From Elusimicrobiales bacterium (GTDB taxonomy: Bacteria > Elusimicrobiota > Elusimicrobia > Elusimicrobiales > UBA9959), in NCBI GenBank assembly GCA_028688015.1, contig JAQTZB010000002.1, positions 186,001-250,000 on the forward strand: a stretch of DNA of 64,000 bases. The letters run 5' to 3'. The notes under the pieces were generated by a model. It was not told the origin of the DNA. It searched no databases and worked only from the letters and a program-made list of their open reading frames with translations. The translations under genes and the position numbers were made by a program. The first letter of the stretch is position 1. Every line of letters starts with the position of its first letter. Positions 10,254-41,123 of this stretch are shown one piece after another.

Positions 10254-10323
10254 TTTGTGCAATAAGTTCCGGCGATGATGTCCGCCGCCCCGGCCGCCGG
10301 GGAAACCGCGCGCGAGCGCTGAT

Positions 10324-10358
10324 GACCTCTACCCCCGAAGGTAGAGGTCTTTAATTTT
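10324..10358 (+). terminator. Rho-independent terminator
   Basis: A perfect 10-bp stem, GACCTCTACC with GGTAGAGGTC, loop CCCGAA, then TTTAATTTT. It closes the ridA-malQ-TRAP transcription unit 71 nt after the binding-protein stop. The stem ends just before the AGGAGA ribosome site of the antiporter gene. Confidence 0.85.
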
Positions 10359-37580: not shown

Positions 37581-38741
37581 ATGACGCGCGCGGAAGAACT
37601 GGAAAACCGCTTAAAATTGCTGGTCAATTTCGGCGGTTCCGTCTCCAAGGAGACCAACCTCAACAGGCTGCTCGAACTCATAGCCGAGCAGGTCAAGACC
37701 ATCCTGGTCTGCGACCGCTGCAGCGTCTTCATCATGGACCGGCAGACCAACGAGCTCTGGAGCAAGGTGACGCTGGGCCTGCAGCACACCGAGATCCGCG
37801 TCCCCTTCGGCAAGGGCATAGTCGGCCACGTGGCCTCCTCGGGCCTGACGCTCAATATCCAGGACGCCTACCAGGACGACCGCTTTACCCACGACATAGA
37901 CCGCCTGACAGGCTACCGCACGCGCAGCATCCTCGCCGTGCCGCTCAAGAACGTCAGCGGCCACATCATCGGCGTGTTCGAGGCCATGAACAAAGTGGGC
38001 GGCCCCTTCAACGTGGACGACGAGGGCATCCTGCAGCTCATCAGCTCGCTGGCGGCTTCGGGCATCGAGAACGCGCAGCTCTACGAGAGCCTCTCCAAGT
38101 CCCAGCTCGAGACCATCTACCGCCTGGCCGTCACGGCCGAATACCGCGACCAGCAGGACACGGCCATCCACCTGCGCCACATCAGCGAGTACTCGGCGCT
38201 GATAGCGCAGGGCCTGGGCCTGCCCGAGCGCGAGGTGGAGAACATCCGCTACGCGAGCCCCCTGCACGACATCGGCAAGGTGGGCATCGCCGACGCCATC
38301 CTGCTCAAGCCCGGCAAGCTGACGCCAGAAGAATTCGAAGAGATGAAAAAACACACGGTCTACGGCGCCAAGATCCTCTGCAACGCCGAGAGCACGCTGC
38401 TGCAGGTGGCCTGCAAGGTGGCCGGCTCGCACCATGAGCGCTTCGACGGCACAGGCTACCCGGCCCGCCTGAAGGCGGAGCAGATCCCGATCTACGCGCG
38501 CATCGTTTCGGTGGCGGACGTGTTCGACGCGCTGTGCGCGCAGCGCGTCTACAAGCCCAAGTGGGACCCGCAGAAGGCGCGCGAGTACATCATGGAAGAG
38601 AACGGCAAGGCCTTCGACCCGAACGTGGTGCAGGCCTTCGACCGCGTGTTCGGCGACATTCTGAAGATGCACGCCCTGGGCGACGGCAAGAGCACCATCA
38701 TCCCCGGCATCCACCGGGAGATGAACCGCCACAATTTCTGA
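37581..38741 (+). CDS. GAF-domain HD-GYP phosphodiesterase
   Basis: Probable cyclic-di-GMP (or cGAMP) phosphodiesterase, 386 residues. N-terminal GAF domain (about 20-170): LLELIAEQVKTILVCDRCSVFIMD, GKGIVGHVASSGLTLNIQDAYQDDRF, RSILAVPLKNVSGHIIGVFEAMNK. C-terminal HD-GYP domain (about 185-375): HLRHISEYSALIAQGLGL, the HD pair in LHDIGKVGI, HHERFDGTGYP (the GYP signature) and VSVADVFDALCAQRVYKPKW. All metal ligands are intact. No TM or receiver, so the input is a cytosolic ligand sensed by GAF. It is followed by a strong terminator. c-di-GMP could act on the pilus-type machinery served by the ATPase at 22.8 kb (inference). Confidence 0.93.
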   Translation: MTRAEELENRLKLLVNFGGSVSKETNLNRLLELIAEQVKTILVCDRCSVFIMDRQTNELWSKVTLGLQHTEIRVPFGKGIVGHVASSGLTLNIQDAYQDDRFTHDIDRLTGYRTRSILAVPLKNVSGHIIGVFEAMNKVGGPFNVDDEGILQLISSLAASGIENAQLYESLSKSQLETIYRLAVTAEYRDQQDTAIHLRHISEYSALIAQGLGLPEREVENIRYASPLHDIGKVGIADAILLKPGKLTPEEFEEMKKHTVYGAKILCNAESTLLQVACKVAGSHHERFDGTGYPARLKAEQIPIYARIVSVADVFDALCAQRVYKPKWDPQKAREYIMEENGKAFDPNVVQAFDRVFGDILKMHALGDGKSTIIPGIHREMNRHNF

Positions 38742-38763
38742 GTTTCCCGTCACGCACCGTAAG

Positions 38764-38788
38764 GCCTGAAACTTTTCAGGCTTTTTTT
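38764..38788 (+). terminator. Rho-independent terminator
   Basis: GCCTGAA-ACTT-TTCAGGC (7-bp stem) followed by seven or eight T, 22 nt after the HD-GYP stop. It separates that gene from the OsmC gene. Confidence 0.88.
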
Positions 38789-38831
38789 ACATCTAACCAT
38801 TGAAGGGCTAAACGAGCAGGAGGACACTACC

Positions 38832-39221
38832 ATGAGCGAGATGAAAATAACTTTCCCCGGCAACAAGAAGGTGAGCGCGCAGTGGCACGGCTTCGAGATA
38901 GCCACCGACCAGCCCGCACCTTCCGGAGAAGGCTCGGCCCCGACCCCCTTCGACCTGTTCCTGGCGTCGCTGGGTACCTGCGCAGGCATCTTCGCGCTGG
39001 GCTTCGTGCAGAGCCGCGGCCTCAGCCCCGAGGGCCTGGGCATCGACGTCTCTTTCGAGGTCAGCCCGGAGACGCACCTGCTCTCCAAGGCCGTCATGAA
39101 GATCACCCCGCCCAAGGATTTCCCCGCCAAGTACCTGCCAGCCCTGGTCAAATCCGCCGAGCAGTGCCTGGTCAAGCGCACAATGGACAACCCGCCCAAG
39201 TTCGAAATCACCGCCGGTTAG
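38832..39221 (+). CDS. OsmC/Ohr-family protein
   Basis: A 129-residue member of the OsmC superfamily, thiol-dependent peroxidases and relatives. Marks: NKKVSAQWHGFEIATDQPAPSGEGSAPTPFDLFLASLGTCAGIFAL, with the first Cys in SLGTCAG, and a second Cys in KSAEQCLVKRTM, the usual redox pair positions. GGAGG (AGGAGGACACT) precedes the ATG. It has the size of OsmC family proteins that lack added domains. Terminator upstream, repeat region downstream. Confidence 0.9.
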   Translation: MSEMKITFPGNKKVSAQWHGFEIATDQPAPSGEGSAPTPFDLFLASLGTCAGIFALGFVQSRGLSPEGLGIDVSFEVSPETHLLSKAVMKITPPKDFPAKYLPALVKSAEQCLVKRTMDNPPKFEITAG

Positions 39222-39262
39222 GATTCCGCGAGAAGCCCAGTCGGGGCCCAGCAGGGGAAGGT

Positions 39263-39421
39263 CGCTCGTGGGTTGGCGGCCTACCGCAGGGGGTAGGAAC
39301 GCAAAACGCGCTCGCGCACACCGTGCGCTCGCTCCGCATTCGCCCTCGGCGCTACGCAAGCCTCGGGCTCATGAGGGTTTTGCTAACCCTACCCCCTGCG
39401 GTCTCCGCTGGTTGCTCGCTT
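39263..39421 (+). repeat. Fold-back (palindromic) element, copy 1
   Basis: A ~159-bp imperfect palindrome. The arm ACCGCAGGGGGTAGG (39283-39297) is a perfect 15-bp match to CCTACCCCCTGCGGT (39388-39402); GCAAAAC (39301-39307) pairs with GTTTTGC (39377-39383). The interior carries a smaller hairpin core GCGCAC-ACC-GTGCGC. The whole unit recurs inverted at 39895-40051 with a high degree of identity. It has no coding logic: all six frames stay open only because it is GC-rich. It looks like a miniature mobile or REP/BIME-type element. Confidence 0.85.
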
Positions 39422-39468
39422 GTAATAGTACTGACAGGGCCGGAGGGCCACACACACCACCAAAACAA

Positions 39469-39490
39469 AACCGCCGGTCCCCCGGCGGTT
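39469..39490 (-). terminator. Terminator downstream of the small membrane gene
   Basis: AACCGCCGG and CCGGCGGTT make a perfect 9-bp stem with a 4-nt loop. Read on the minus strand the stem is followed by TTGTTTTGG, so it terminates the small leftward gene, 60 nt after its stop. It is part of the island between the two repeat copies. Confidence 0.65.
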
Positions 39491-39550
39491 AACAAATAGT
39501 CCAATAGTTAAGAACGTCCCCTCTTACCCTAATACAGAAATCAGCGTCAC

Positions 39551-39787
39551 CTATGGGTGAATGAGCCCAAAGAATATTACTACCAGCAATACAACCAGAG
39601 AAATTACCGCGCCAATAATCATACCTGCAGGATTACCAAGGAAACTATCAATCCCAGAGGCCAGTCCGTTAAATGGCTTTGTCGAGGGGGGCGCATCTTT
39701 GCTCCGTGCCCCCCTTGCCGAAAGAAAGGATCCAATCATTATAAATAGCCCGAACGCTAATATGAATTTGTAGGCGTTCTCTTCCAT
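39551..39787 (-). CDS. Small two-TM protein in an AT-rich island
   Basis: A 78-residue protein, MEENAYKF to FGLIHP, with hydrophobic segments at about 7-24 and 54-75 separated by a polar loop with Arg/Lys and Ser/Pro. The ATG follows GTAGGGAG with good spacing; the upstream in-frame GTG at 39805 gives six extra residues and is less likely. Base composition is far lower in GC than the rest of the window, which suggests transfer or strong selection. It lies with its own terminator between two inverted copies of a fold-back element. I do not recognise the family; the frame could also be fortuitous, but ribosome site, TM pattern and terminator argue for a real gene. Confidence 0.7.
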   Translation of the reverse strand: MEENAYKFILAFGLFIMIGSFLSARGARSKDAPPSTKPFNGLASGIDSFLGNPAGMIIGAVISLVVLLVVIFFGLIHP

Positions 39788-39894
39788 ATACAACTCCCTA
39801 CCCACCTATAATTATGGGGACAGTATACTTAATTTGTGCTGCGCCGAAGGTACGGCGAGGGTATGCCTTCCCCCTATATTTATCAGTCCTACCC

Positions 39895-40051
39895 AAGCGA
39901 GCCACCAGCGGAGACCGCAGGGGTAGGACAAGCAAAACCGTCGCGAGCCCGACGCTTGCGTAGCGCGGAGGGCGAGTGCCGAGTGAGCGCACGGTGTGCG
40001 CGAACGCGTTTTGCGGTCCTGCCCCTGCGGTAGGCCGCCAAACCACGAGCG
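39895..40051 (-). repeat. Fold-back (palindromic) element, copy 2 (inverted)
   Basis: The reverse complement of the 39263-39421 element. The arms are ACCGCAGGGGTAGG (39914-39927) and CCTGCCCCTGCGGT (40018-40031), with one mismatch, and the inner pair GCAAAAC (39932-39938) and GTTTTGC (40008-40014). Sequence such as the core GCGCACACCGTGCGC is identical to copy 1 in the opposite orientation. The two copies enclose 473 bp. The right end is 34 bp before the stop of the leftward sugar-phosphate transferase gene. Confidence 0.85.
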
Positions 40052-40085
40052 TCCTCCCCGCGGTAGGCCGCCCGATGTCAGAAAA

Positions 40086-41123
40086 CTATATTTTAATTTT
40101 GGCGATGGCGAGGCTGAAGAGGAGGAATTCCGTCAGGAGGAAGAGGATGATGACCACGCCCCAGGGGAGCGTGACCTGGGTGATGAGCCAGGCGAAGACG
40201 ACGAGGCCCAGCGTGGTGATGGAGGCCAGGCCCACTATGCGGCGGCGCGAGAGGCCGAGCTTCTCCAGCCGCAGCGCGAAGTGGTCCTTGCTGCCCACGA
40301 AGGGCGACAGCCCGCGGCGCAGCCGCATGATAGAGACGAAGAGGGTGTCGTAGATGGGCACCGCCAGGATGAACAGCGGCGCGTAGACGCCCAGCGGGTT
40401 CACGTCGGTGTAACGCGTGCCCAGCGCCAGCACCGACAGCAGGTAGCCGCAGACCAGGCTGCCCGAATCGCCCATGAAGATCTTATACTTTTTAGAGAAA
40501 TTGTAGGGCAGGAAGCCCGCCGCCGCGCCCGCCAGCGCCGCCGCCGCGAAGTTCACGTAAATGGACTCGGACGGCAGCGCTATCAGCAGGAAGCCGAAGG
40601 CCGCCAGCGCCGCCTGCCCCGCCGAGAGCCCGTCCATGATGTCCACGATATTGAAAGCGTTAGACACCCCTACTATCCAGAACACACTGAGCATGAAGTT
40701 CAGGTAATCCGGGTGGATGAAGTGGAGCCTGATGCCGTAATAGACCGTGAAGATCGCCACCGCGAACTGCACGATGAACTTGACCCGCACGCCCAGCCCG
40801 TTGGGCTTGCGGAAATCGTCTATCAGCCCCAGCGCGAACATCACCGCGCCGCCGGCCAGCAGCACGCGCAGGTCGCGCAGCGTACCGGTTGGAAAAGAAG
40901 TGACCAGGCGCATGACCACCAGCGAGGCCGCGAACGCCGCGAACACCGCGGCCCCGCCCAGCAGCGGCGTCGGGTTCTTATGCGTCTTGATATGCGTGGG
41001 TTTGTCGAGGTGGCCGAACTTCACGGCCAGCGCGCGCAGCAGCGGCGTCAGCGCCAGCGACAGGCCCAGCGGCAGCAGGAAGGCCAGCAGGTAGAGCTTA
41101 AAATTCGCCGTAAGGTCATTCAT
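40086..41123 (-). CDS. Polyprenyl-phosphate sugar-1-phosphate transferase (MraY/WecA family)
   Basis: Polytopic inner-membrane enzyme, 345 residues and about ten TM segments, that starts a lipid-linked glycan by moving a sugar-1-P from UDP-HexNAc to undecaprenyl-P. All MraY/WecA motifs show: GHLDKPTHIKTHKNPTPLLGG, the DD pair in LGLIDDFRKP, NAFNIVDIMDGLSAG, FMGDSGS and the HFALRL motif near residue 285. It is closer to WecA/TagO/Rfe than MraY. It overlaps the RmlD-like gene by 8 nt. It probably primes the surface glycan built by the genes from 41 to 60 kb. Confidence 0.92.
   Translation of the reverse strand: MNDLTANFKLYLLAFLLPLGLSLALTPLLRALAVKFGHLDKPTHIKTHKNPTPLLGGAAVFAAFAASLVVMRLVTSFPTGTLRDLRVLLAGGAVMFALGLIDDFRKPNGLGVRVKFIVQFAVAIFTVYYGIRLHFIHPDYLNFMLSVFWIVGVSNAFNIVDIMDGLSAGQAALAAFGFLLIALPSESIYVNFAAAALAGAAAGFLPYNFSKKYKIFMGDSGSLVCGYLLSVLALGTRYTDVNPLGVYAPLFILAVPIYDTLFVSIMRLRRGLSPFVGSKDHFALRLEKLGLSRRRIVGLASITTLGLVVFAWLITQVTLPWGVVIILFLLTEFLLFSLAIAKIKI

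Follow-up and report, generated by a model that had tools for sequence, protein, structure and literature searches.

One question raised by this locus is why two long, self-folding sequences should stand in inverted orientation on either side of a small gene. REP-like repeats are common, and work on their spread largely rests on RAYT systems. The host is an uncultured Elusimicrobia bacterium with a 3.34-Mb draft genome (G000), of which we analysed one stretch of 64,000 nucleotides, referred to throughout as the window (G000:C40:186001-250000). Both fold-backs are placed between convergent genes, an OsmC-like gene that ends at 39221 and a glycosyltransferase gene with its stop at 40086, the protein of the latter being 94% identical to that of Elusimicrobia bacterium GWC2_64_44 and 92% to that of GWB2_63_22. 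The initial annotation read this arrangement as a miniature composite mobile unit, or as a REP-type pair, that had captured a gene. The neighbouring genes and the fold-backs are the following.

38832..39221, + strand: OsmC-like gene, the left, convergent neighbour (ORF list; PF02566, E=2e-12)
39263..39421, + strand: fold-back copy 1 (HP1, family A), Y-shaped, with an outer stem, an inner stem and two hairpins (fold; one of the 58 matches of covariance model R1)
39283..39297, + strand: 5' outer arm of copy 1, partner 39388-39402 (15 nt at 100%; helix 1 covaries)
39314..39328, + strand: GCGCAC-ACC-GTGCGC hairpin of copy 1 (fold; helix 4 of the covariation alignment)
39342..39368, + strand: second inner hairpin of copy 1, GCCCTCGGCGCTACGCAAGCCTCGGGC (fold; helix 6 covaries)
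39388..39402, + strand: 3' outer arm of copy 1 (inverted-repeat detection)
39895..40051, - strand: fold-back copy 2 (HP1, family A), inverted (fold; R1 match 39911-40035)
40086..41123, - strand: glycosyltransferase family 4 gene, the right, convergent neighbour (ORF list; PF00953, E=2.8e-29)

The two copies are inverted with respect to one another, as annotated, and their description as near-identical is slightly generous, given 88.7% identity over all 159 positions. Each of them folds upon itself. The outer arms of copy 1 pair perfectly over 15 nt, those of copy 2 (39914-39929 and 40016-40031) are 16 nt long and match at 94%, and the inner GCAAAAC/GTTTTGC pair is present where the annotation had placed it, as is the GCGCACACCGTGCGC hairpin. 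The fold of copy 1 is better than all 200 dinucleotide shuffles, both as DNA (z of -3.9) and as RNA (z of about -5.1 on both strands).

This sequence is not peculiar to the window. The 159-nt unit matches 43 places in its own genome by BLAST, partial ones counted, and 12 of these, itself among them, are at 94-100%. Model R1, which was built on 25 dissimilar copies, has 58 matches in the same genome, one of them partial. Every one of the 32 genomes of the genus is matched by BLAST. Under stricter filters, a sample of 198 genomes from the whole phylum gave 12 with R1 matches, all from the host's family (f1) and from four of its genera (g1, g2, g4 and g6); 18 genomes of that family are listed among the 198. 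The rest of the sample gave zero R1 matches, and this includes genera g3, g5, g7, g8 and g9 of the same family. The element was absent from the phage and plasmid records searched, viral contigs were negative for one exact pattern, and searches of the open-access literature, judged by titles and abstracts, brought up no description of such a fold-back family. What we find is a dispersed, multi-copy family without a gene of its own, and in this respect the REP-type reading of the initial annotation was well founded. A 23-nt insert, CAAGAAAGTGTCGCTTCGCTCCA, is found in the third arm of two copies from the host genome (L024 and L042), and in genome G013 several matches of R1, about 150 nt long, may resemble this insert form.

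The base pairing of the fold-backs is maintained through covariation. Across a 25-row alignment 89.2% of cells pair, double changes are found in 28 of 43 pairs, and the score for covariation, 0.313, falls to 0.046-0.090 once the pairing partners are slid. Four of five covariation measures lie above all 500 shuffles and the fifth, further pair types, was reached by 16 of the 500; as the alignment rows are related, this control may be inflated and should not be taken as a probability. The outer stem and the second hairpin together hold 490 Watson-Crick cells, 8 A-C cells, 10 other mismatches and no G-T cell on the given strand, the A-C cells in these two long helices being wobble pairs on the other strand. 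Such a composition fits pairing at the DNA level, and we infer that the long stems are under constraint as DNA. The inner helices contain 26 G-T cells, which count against a DNA-only reading. By eye, three further copies from the host genome (L043, L045 and L046) carry the Y core within outer stems that are quite different yet remain self-complementary, and in other genera the outer stems are different again. One of the three, L043, has a terminator-like run of T after its stem.

A single fold-back is generally only half of the element. The usual unit consists of two fold-backs and a linker of about 40 nt, carries no gene and is modally about 334 bp long. A second stem could be scored for 46 of the 58 copies, the other 12 falling beyond the sequence retrieved or too close to its ends. 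Stems scoring at least 14 were found downstream of 32 of the 46 copies, upstream of one, and in one of 46 random stretches; the second stem starts about 39-49 nt past the model edge in 34 of the 46, with four pairs counted from both sides. Where two Y cores lie close together they face each other (4 of 4), with 41-45 nt between them. A script located the 3' end in 27 of 36 copies, giving 21 units of 328-339 bp, and at the 5' junction a G is found at -3 in 31 and at -2 in 33 of the 36. The flanks of three copies (L013, L015 and L036) appear by eye to be loosely inverted to one another.

By the stem score, 12 of the 46 copies have no stem at the usual distance; one copy, C12:62096 (L013), was scored on another stem, and by eye a B fold-back is present there. 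Both window copies are among the 12, with downstream scores of 9 and 8, which is the background level. Their matches are 505 nt apart, compared with the usual linker of about 40 nt. Neither copy has a second fold-back behind it, and the window therefore holds two orphan half-units behind two convergent genes, not a composite transposon. Around and between these half-units lie the following features.

39226..39261, - strand: outer-arm remnant from an older fold-back of the second type (B/HP2 end), immediately outside copy 1 (91.7% to the B outer arm; exact 32-nt string at 39226-39257)
39422..39449, + strand: linker remnant of copy 1, with no second fold-back behind it (by-eye comparison with other right flanks; downstream stem score 9)
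39469..39490, - strand: terminator-like hairpin for a leftward transcript (like hairpins at the same place in G006, which has no gene there, and in G004)
39551..39787, - strand: 78-aa orphan ORF, likely a membrane protein (ORF list; 1 of 32 genus genomes)
39816..39834, + strand: REP-like motif GGGGACAGTATACTTAATT, of the Y1-transposase (RAYT) type (sequence; like motifs flank the Y1 gene of G006, L155; same motif at the same place in G004)
39857..39870, + strand: half arm of a third fold-back type (C) (by-eye comparison with C arms)
40056..40072, - strand: outer-arm remnant from an older fold-back of HP1 type, outside copy 2 (inverted repeat; corresponds to the outermost arm of G006 at this place)

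The arm remnants on both sides, the C half arm and the REP-like motif were absent from the initial annotation. It did describe the interval 39422-39894 (473 bp) as an island of lower GC, and this is so, at 0.478 against 0.65 for the window. It also described a two-TM gene of 78 residues. The ORF is there, encoding 78 aa if read from its ATG and 84 aa if read from the GTG at 39805. Towards the C terminus the protein is strongly hydrophobic, in windows that start at residues 49-60; a second membrane segment, in the N-terminal part, was judged plausible by eye only. The protein has no Pfam family above cut-off and no PADLOC family.

Comparison with relatives separates this gene from the fold-backs. 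The 78-aa protein is matched in 1 of the 32 genus genomes. In the closest relative, G006, both places are taken by fold-backs of another subfamily, with no gene in the interval, while G004 has B signatures on both sides of a different small ORF; at 8 of 29 genus loci only 7-101 bp occupy the place. The 117-aa protein of G004 matches itself, a 36% relative in G003 and, weakly, a stop-broken sequence in G028, and a scan of the G003 locus (L306) for fold-back signatures found none. The hairpin at 39490-39469, on the ORF strand, had been called the gene's own terminator. The hairpin is confirmed, but its ownership is doubtful: G006 has a like hairpin without the ORF, and that of the window may instead be part of the transcript of the glycosyltransferase gene. 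The motif at 39816, REP-like and similar to those beside the Y1 gene of G006, is common to the window and G004. The 78-aa gene looks like a late local addition, not a passenger of the fold-backs, and the island makes better sense as intergenic or REP-linked DNA than as fold-back cargo. At the window, then, the missing second halves, the gene-less pair of G006 and the single genome in 32 lead us to reject a composite transposon with the small gene as its cargo, and the capture that the initial annotation had proposed is not supported.

The arm remnants outside both window copies are an instance of something more general. An arm of another fold-back lies within 60 nt on the 5' side of 17 of 36 family-A copies, compared with 11 of 2000 random 60-mers and none of the 36 when the stretch 200-260 nt upstream is taken instead. 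By eye, copy 2 of the window also retains a linker and the half C-type arm, and copy 1 a piece of linker.

How such sites change was followed by comparing 14 sites of the host genome with the orthologous places in G006 and G004, leaving out rows at contig ends (L023 for G006, L024 for G004) and three without a G004 locus (L014, L016 and L018). All 13 evaluable sites of G006 are occupied, often by other or reversed units; L010, L012 and L015 are clearly reversed, L018 and L020 mixed. G004 shows a Y signature at 2 of 10 evaluable sites, and four of its other sites have 3-54 bp between alignable flanks. All 18 Y fold-backs of G006 at shared sites, the window locus included, are nearer to a host copy elsewhere than to the copy at the same site, in a comparison that sets first against second unit halves at some sites. 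Two copies in G006 are 99% identical to host copies elsewhere, with flank pieces at 83-95% between the genomes. The sites persist and their contents turn over between sister species, to a degree that is exaggerated here because the 14 sites were picked mainly for high identity to copy 1. The initial annotation had looked to empty sites and target duplications as evidence of movement: orthologous places do vary in presence and content, while duplications are no better than shuffled flanks, and the compared species are too distant for an exact empty site to be defined, which counts against mobility. At four loci (L117, L125, L140 and L187) other REP-type inverted pairs (GGGGAC..., GGGGTCAGG...) lie in the intergenic region where sister genomes have fold-backs.

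Dispersal, structural constraint, a fixed unit plan, presence and absence between species, nesting and differing contents at shared sites are thus all observed. The reading that we favour, with reasonable though far from complete confidence, is that the fold-backs are a REPIN/CIR-like population of two-hairpin repeats, mobile as DNA through an enzyme acting in trans and preferring their own older copies as target. A full unit comprises HP1 and HP2 facing each other across the linker, gene-free, each with a long outer stem and, in the Y-type, a conserved three-way core. Units would be copied as DNA by a trans-supplied enzyme that recognises the folded ends. The preferred targets may be G-rich sequences (RGG), among them the arms of fold-backs already in place, and each insertion would cost the older unit its interior, so that sites persist while a young subfamily sweeps through. 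Events of this kind on both sides of the convergent intergenic region would have produced the two orphan half-units of the window. The AT-rich island and its small gene would be a separate addition, possibly linked to the adjacent REP-like motif.

Several known systems invite comparison. REPINs and BIMEs consist of paired inverted REPs with a short linker, and are associated with a RAYT (PMC3116915, PMC8266576). Like them, the fold-back family has two inverted hairpin repeats, a short linker, an intergenic position, many copies and no gene of its own. It differs in that each fold-back is about 159 nt with a three-way core, where the REPs described are 20-50 nt; in that there is no GTAG tag, nor a linked RAYT at 30 Y1 loci; and in that fold-backs are often nested in other units and contents differ at shared sites. 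In the 25 aligned copies a 5' foot of GCCTAC and a 3' foot of TCTC are invariant or nearly so, and the test for GTAG/CGTC tags failed. CIR elements of Caulobacter and Brucella share the two long inverted-repeat arms, the linker and the intergenic position; they are described with a GANTC motif in a terminal loop, which neither window copy contains, and the fold-back units are larger and from a different phylum (PMC2229807). YPAL/RU-2 of Yersinia is similar in its size of about 168 bp, its internal inverted repeats and in not being AT-rich, in its targets at or next to dyad symmetry, and in the filled and empty sites known for YPAL. However, YPAL is described as a single palindrome with target duplications of 3-26 bp (PMC2229807), whereas the fold-back family has a two-hairpin unit and none above the shuffled level. 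The CGTC REPs are, likewise, a palindromic family that 'apparently lack[s] a dedicated transposase', but they are given as 20-40 bp long with a CGTC tag and have no three-way core (PMC3733652). Integron attC cassettes stand in direct orientation, unlike the inverted copies of the window. The GTAG/RAYT tests for REPs, the terminal-repeat test for MITEs and the GANTC test for CIR elements were negative. By analogy, we would file the family among the palindromic non-autonomous repeats, as a form that may work like a REPIN.

With the architecture of REPINs and BIMEs (PMC3116915, PMC8266576), the fold-backs might be oversized REP pairs moved by the Y1 (TnpA_REP) transposases of the genus, and a Y1 gene is indeed found in 27 of the 32 genus genomes, with one in the host genome. 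Its loci do not point that way. There are 86 Y1 matches in the genus (table sum), and none of the 30 loci examined carries a fold-back, the sole hits there being three 22-24 nt pieces of one intergenic query, read as REP-type sequence. Three of the five Y1 loci with flanks read (L113, L155 and L163) have short REP-like repeats of their own. Moreover, 24-52 copies are present in each of five genomes that gave no Y1 hit, of which four are at least 90% complete, the 5' foot has neither a GTAG nor a CGTC tag, and the fold-backs are far larger than REPs. On the evidence at hand we reject RAYT/Y1 as the mover and regard RAYT-driven REPINs as a poor explanation of the family. The search for a mover, which covered the Y1_Tnp family in the host and the 32 genus genomes, did not find the enzyme. 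A classical DDE transposon, now absent from these genomes, might instead have left the units as its MITEs; they are short, multi-copy, gene-free, intergenic and palindromic. Yet in 21 units the terminal 25 nt on either side match one another as inverted repeats no better than shuffled ends do (mean 4.95 against 5.43), and their 15-nt flanks share no longer direct words (mean 3.19 against 3.33 shuffled, maximum 4), a measure that very short duplications could escape. A long autonomous copy was sought, unsystematically, among ten stretches, L290-L292 aside, and no transposase-bearing relative was met: about 2.8 kb between facing matches in G017 holds ordinary-looking genes, such as pantothenate synthesis (read from translations), and about 200 nt in G059 shows no obvious gene by eye. 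We consider a MITE origin very improbable. The same figures weigh on mobility through a trans-acting enzyme, since with neither terminal repeats nor target duplications above the shuffled level there is no classical insertion signature.

A role as structured RNA 3' ends, kept for termination or mRNA protection and spread by ordinary duplication and gene conversion, is a somewhat better but still unlikely account. It draws on the stability of copy 1 as RNA on both strands, on the G-T cells of the inner helices, on several copies that start 21-42 nt past a stop codon, and on genomic placement. In 40 stretches of 16 kb centred on elements, with rough codon-position gene calls that are wrong at the window's left neighbour (a minus-strand call where the OsmC gene is plus), elements occupy 25 of 349 tandem, 11 of 77 convergent and 2 of 69 divergent gaps. 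They are thus rare at promoters, and the excess in convergent over divergent gaps also fits a terminator or RNA 3'-end role. Element orientation is linked to neither GC skew (22 of 44) nor gene strand (24 of 44), and the lagging-strand bias expected of single-strand transposition is therefore not seen, a point against our favoured reading. Several results are hard to reconcile with the RNA account, however. The two long helices have no G-T against 490 Watson-Crick cells on the given strand; new units lie out of register inside old arms, where allelic conversion would not put them; a Y signature is missing from 8 of the 10 sites that could be evaluated in G004; and Rfam 15, searched with window positions 38700-40200 at E<=5, gave two weak matches, neither over a fold-back. 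There is, finally, the idea of the initial annotation that facing fold-backs and a gene between them move as one unit. Small ORFs do lie between facing fold-backs at two loci, that of the window and one with an HNH-like ORF, so genes in this position are not unique to the window. The HNH-like ORF, first met on contig C49 of G030, is enclosed in G030, G001 and G027 (L297, L298 and L300) and has a model match on one side in G013 (L299). By eye, however, this is one and the same locus, in other words inherited, and at the window the second half is missing behind both copies, the G006 pair has no gene, G004 has another gene and the protein is in 1 of 32 genomes. Composite cargo elements are accordingly a rather improbable explanation. 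On the 808-kb contig G000:C51, 11 of 13 BLAST copies are on the minus strand, with no general strand rule elsewhere; a replication-strand bias suggested by this contig was dropped, as the 40 stretches show no link to skew or gene strand.

The HNH-like ORF also offers a lead, though a speculative one, for the favoured reading of repeats moved in trans, as a gene that might correspond to a RAYT flanked by its REPs. It occurs without a facing pair in G002, G003 and G009, the last having a single model match some 460 nt downstream; G014 shows just a fragment, and the host genome lacks the ORF. In G030 it is without an ATG, GTG or TTG start, and its Pfam scores are below cut-off. One might imagine a homing-like repeat, in which new units are sent into the arms of older units, the interior is replaced, and fixed slots are swept by successive subfamilies. 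Its driver would be something other than Y1, perhaps a small, single-copy HNH-type nuclease standing as RAYT does to REPINs, which the host has lost or for which it uses a diverged one. This elaboration strikes us as a long shot.

The family follows the plan of a REPIN on a scale several times larger, in an uncultured phylum that branches deeply, and some of its genomes are without a detected Y1. Its slot-like behaviour, with shared sites, swapped contents and nested arms, provides a way to separate insertion-by-replacement from gene conversion, and it bears on how REP-like repeats spread and why they are kept. Away from the fold-backs, the window contains a fluoride riboswitch (RF01734) at 10262-10338 on the + strand, its sole Rfam match at gathering score.
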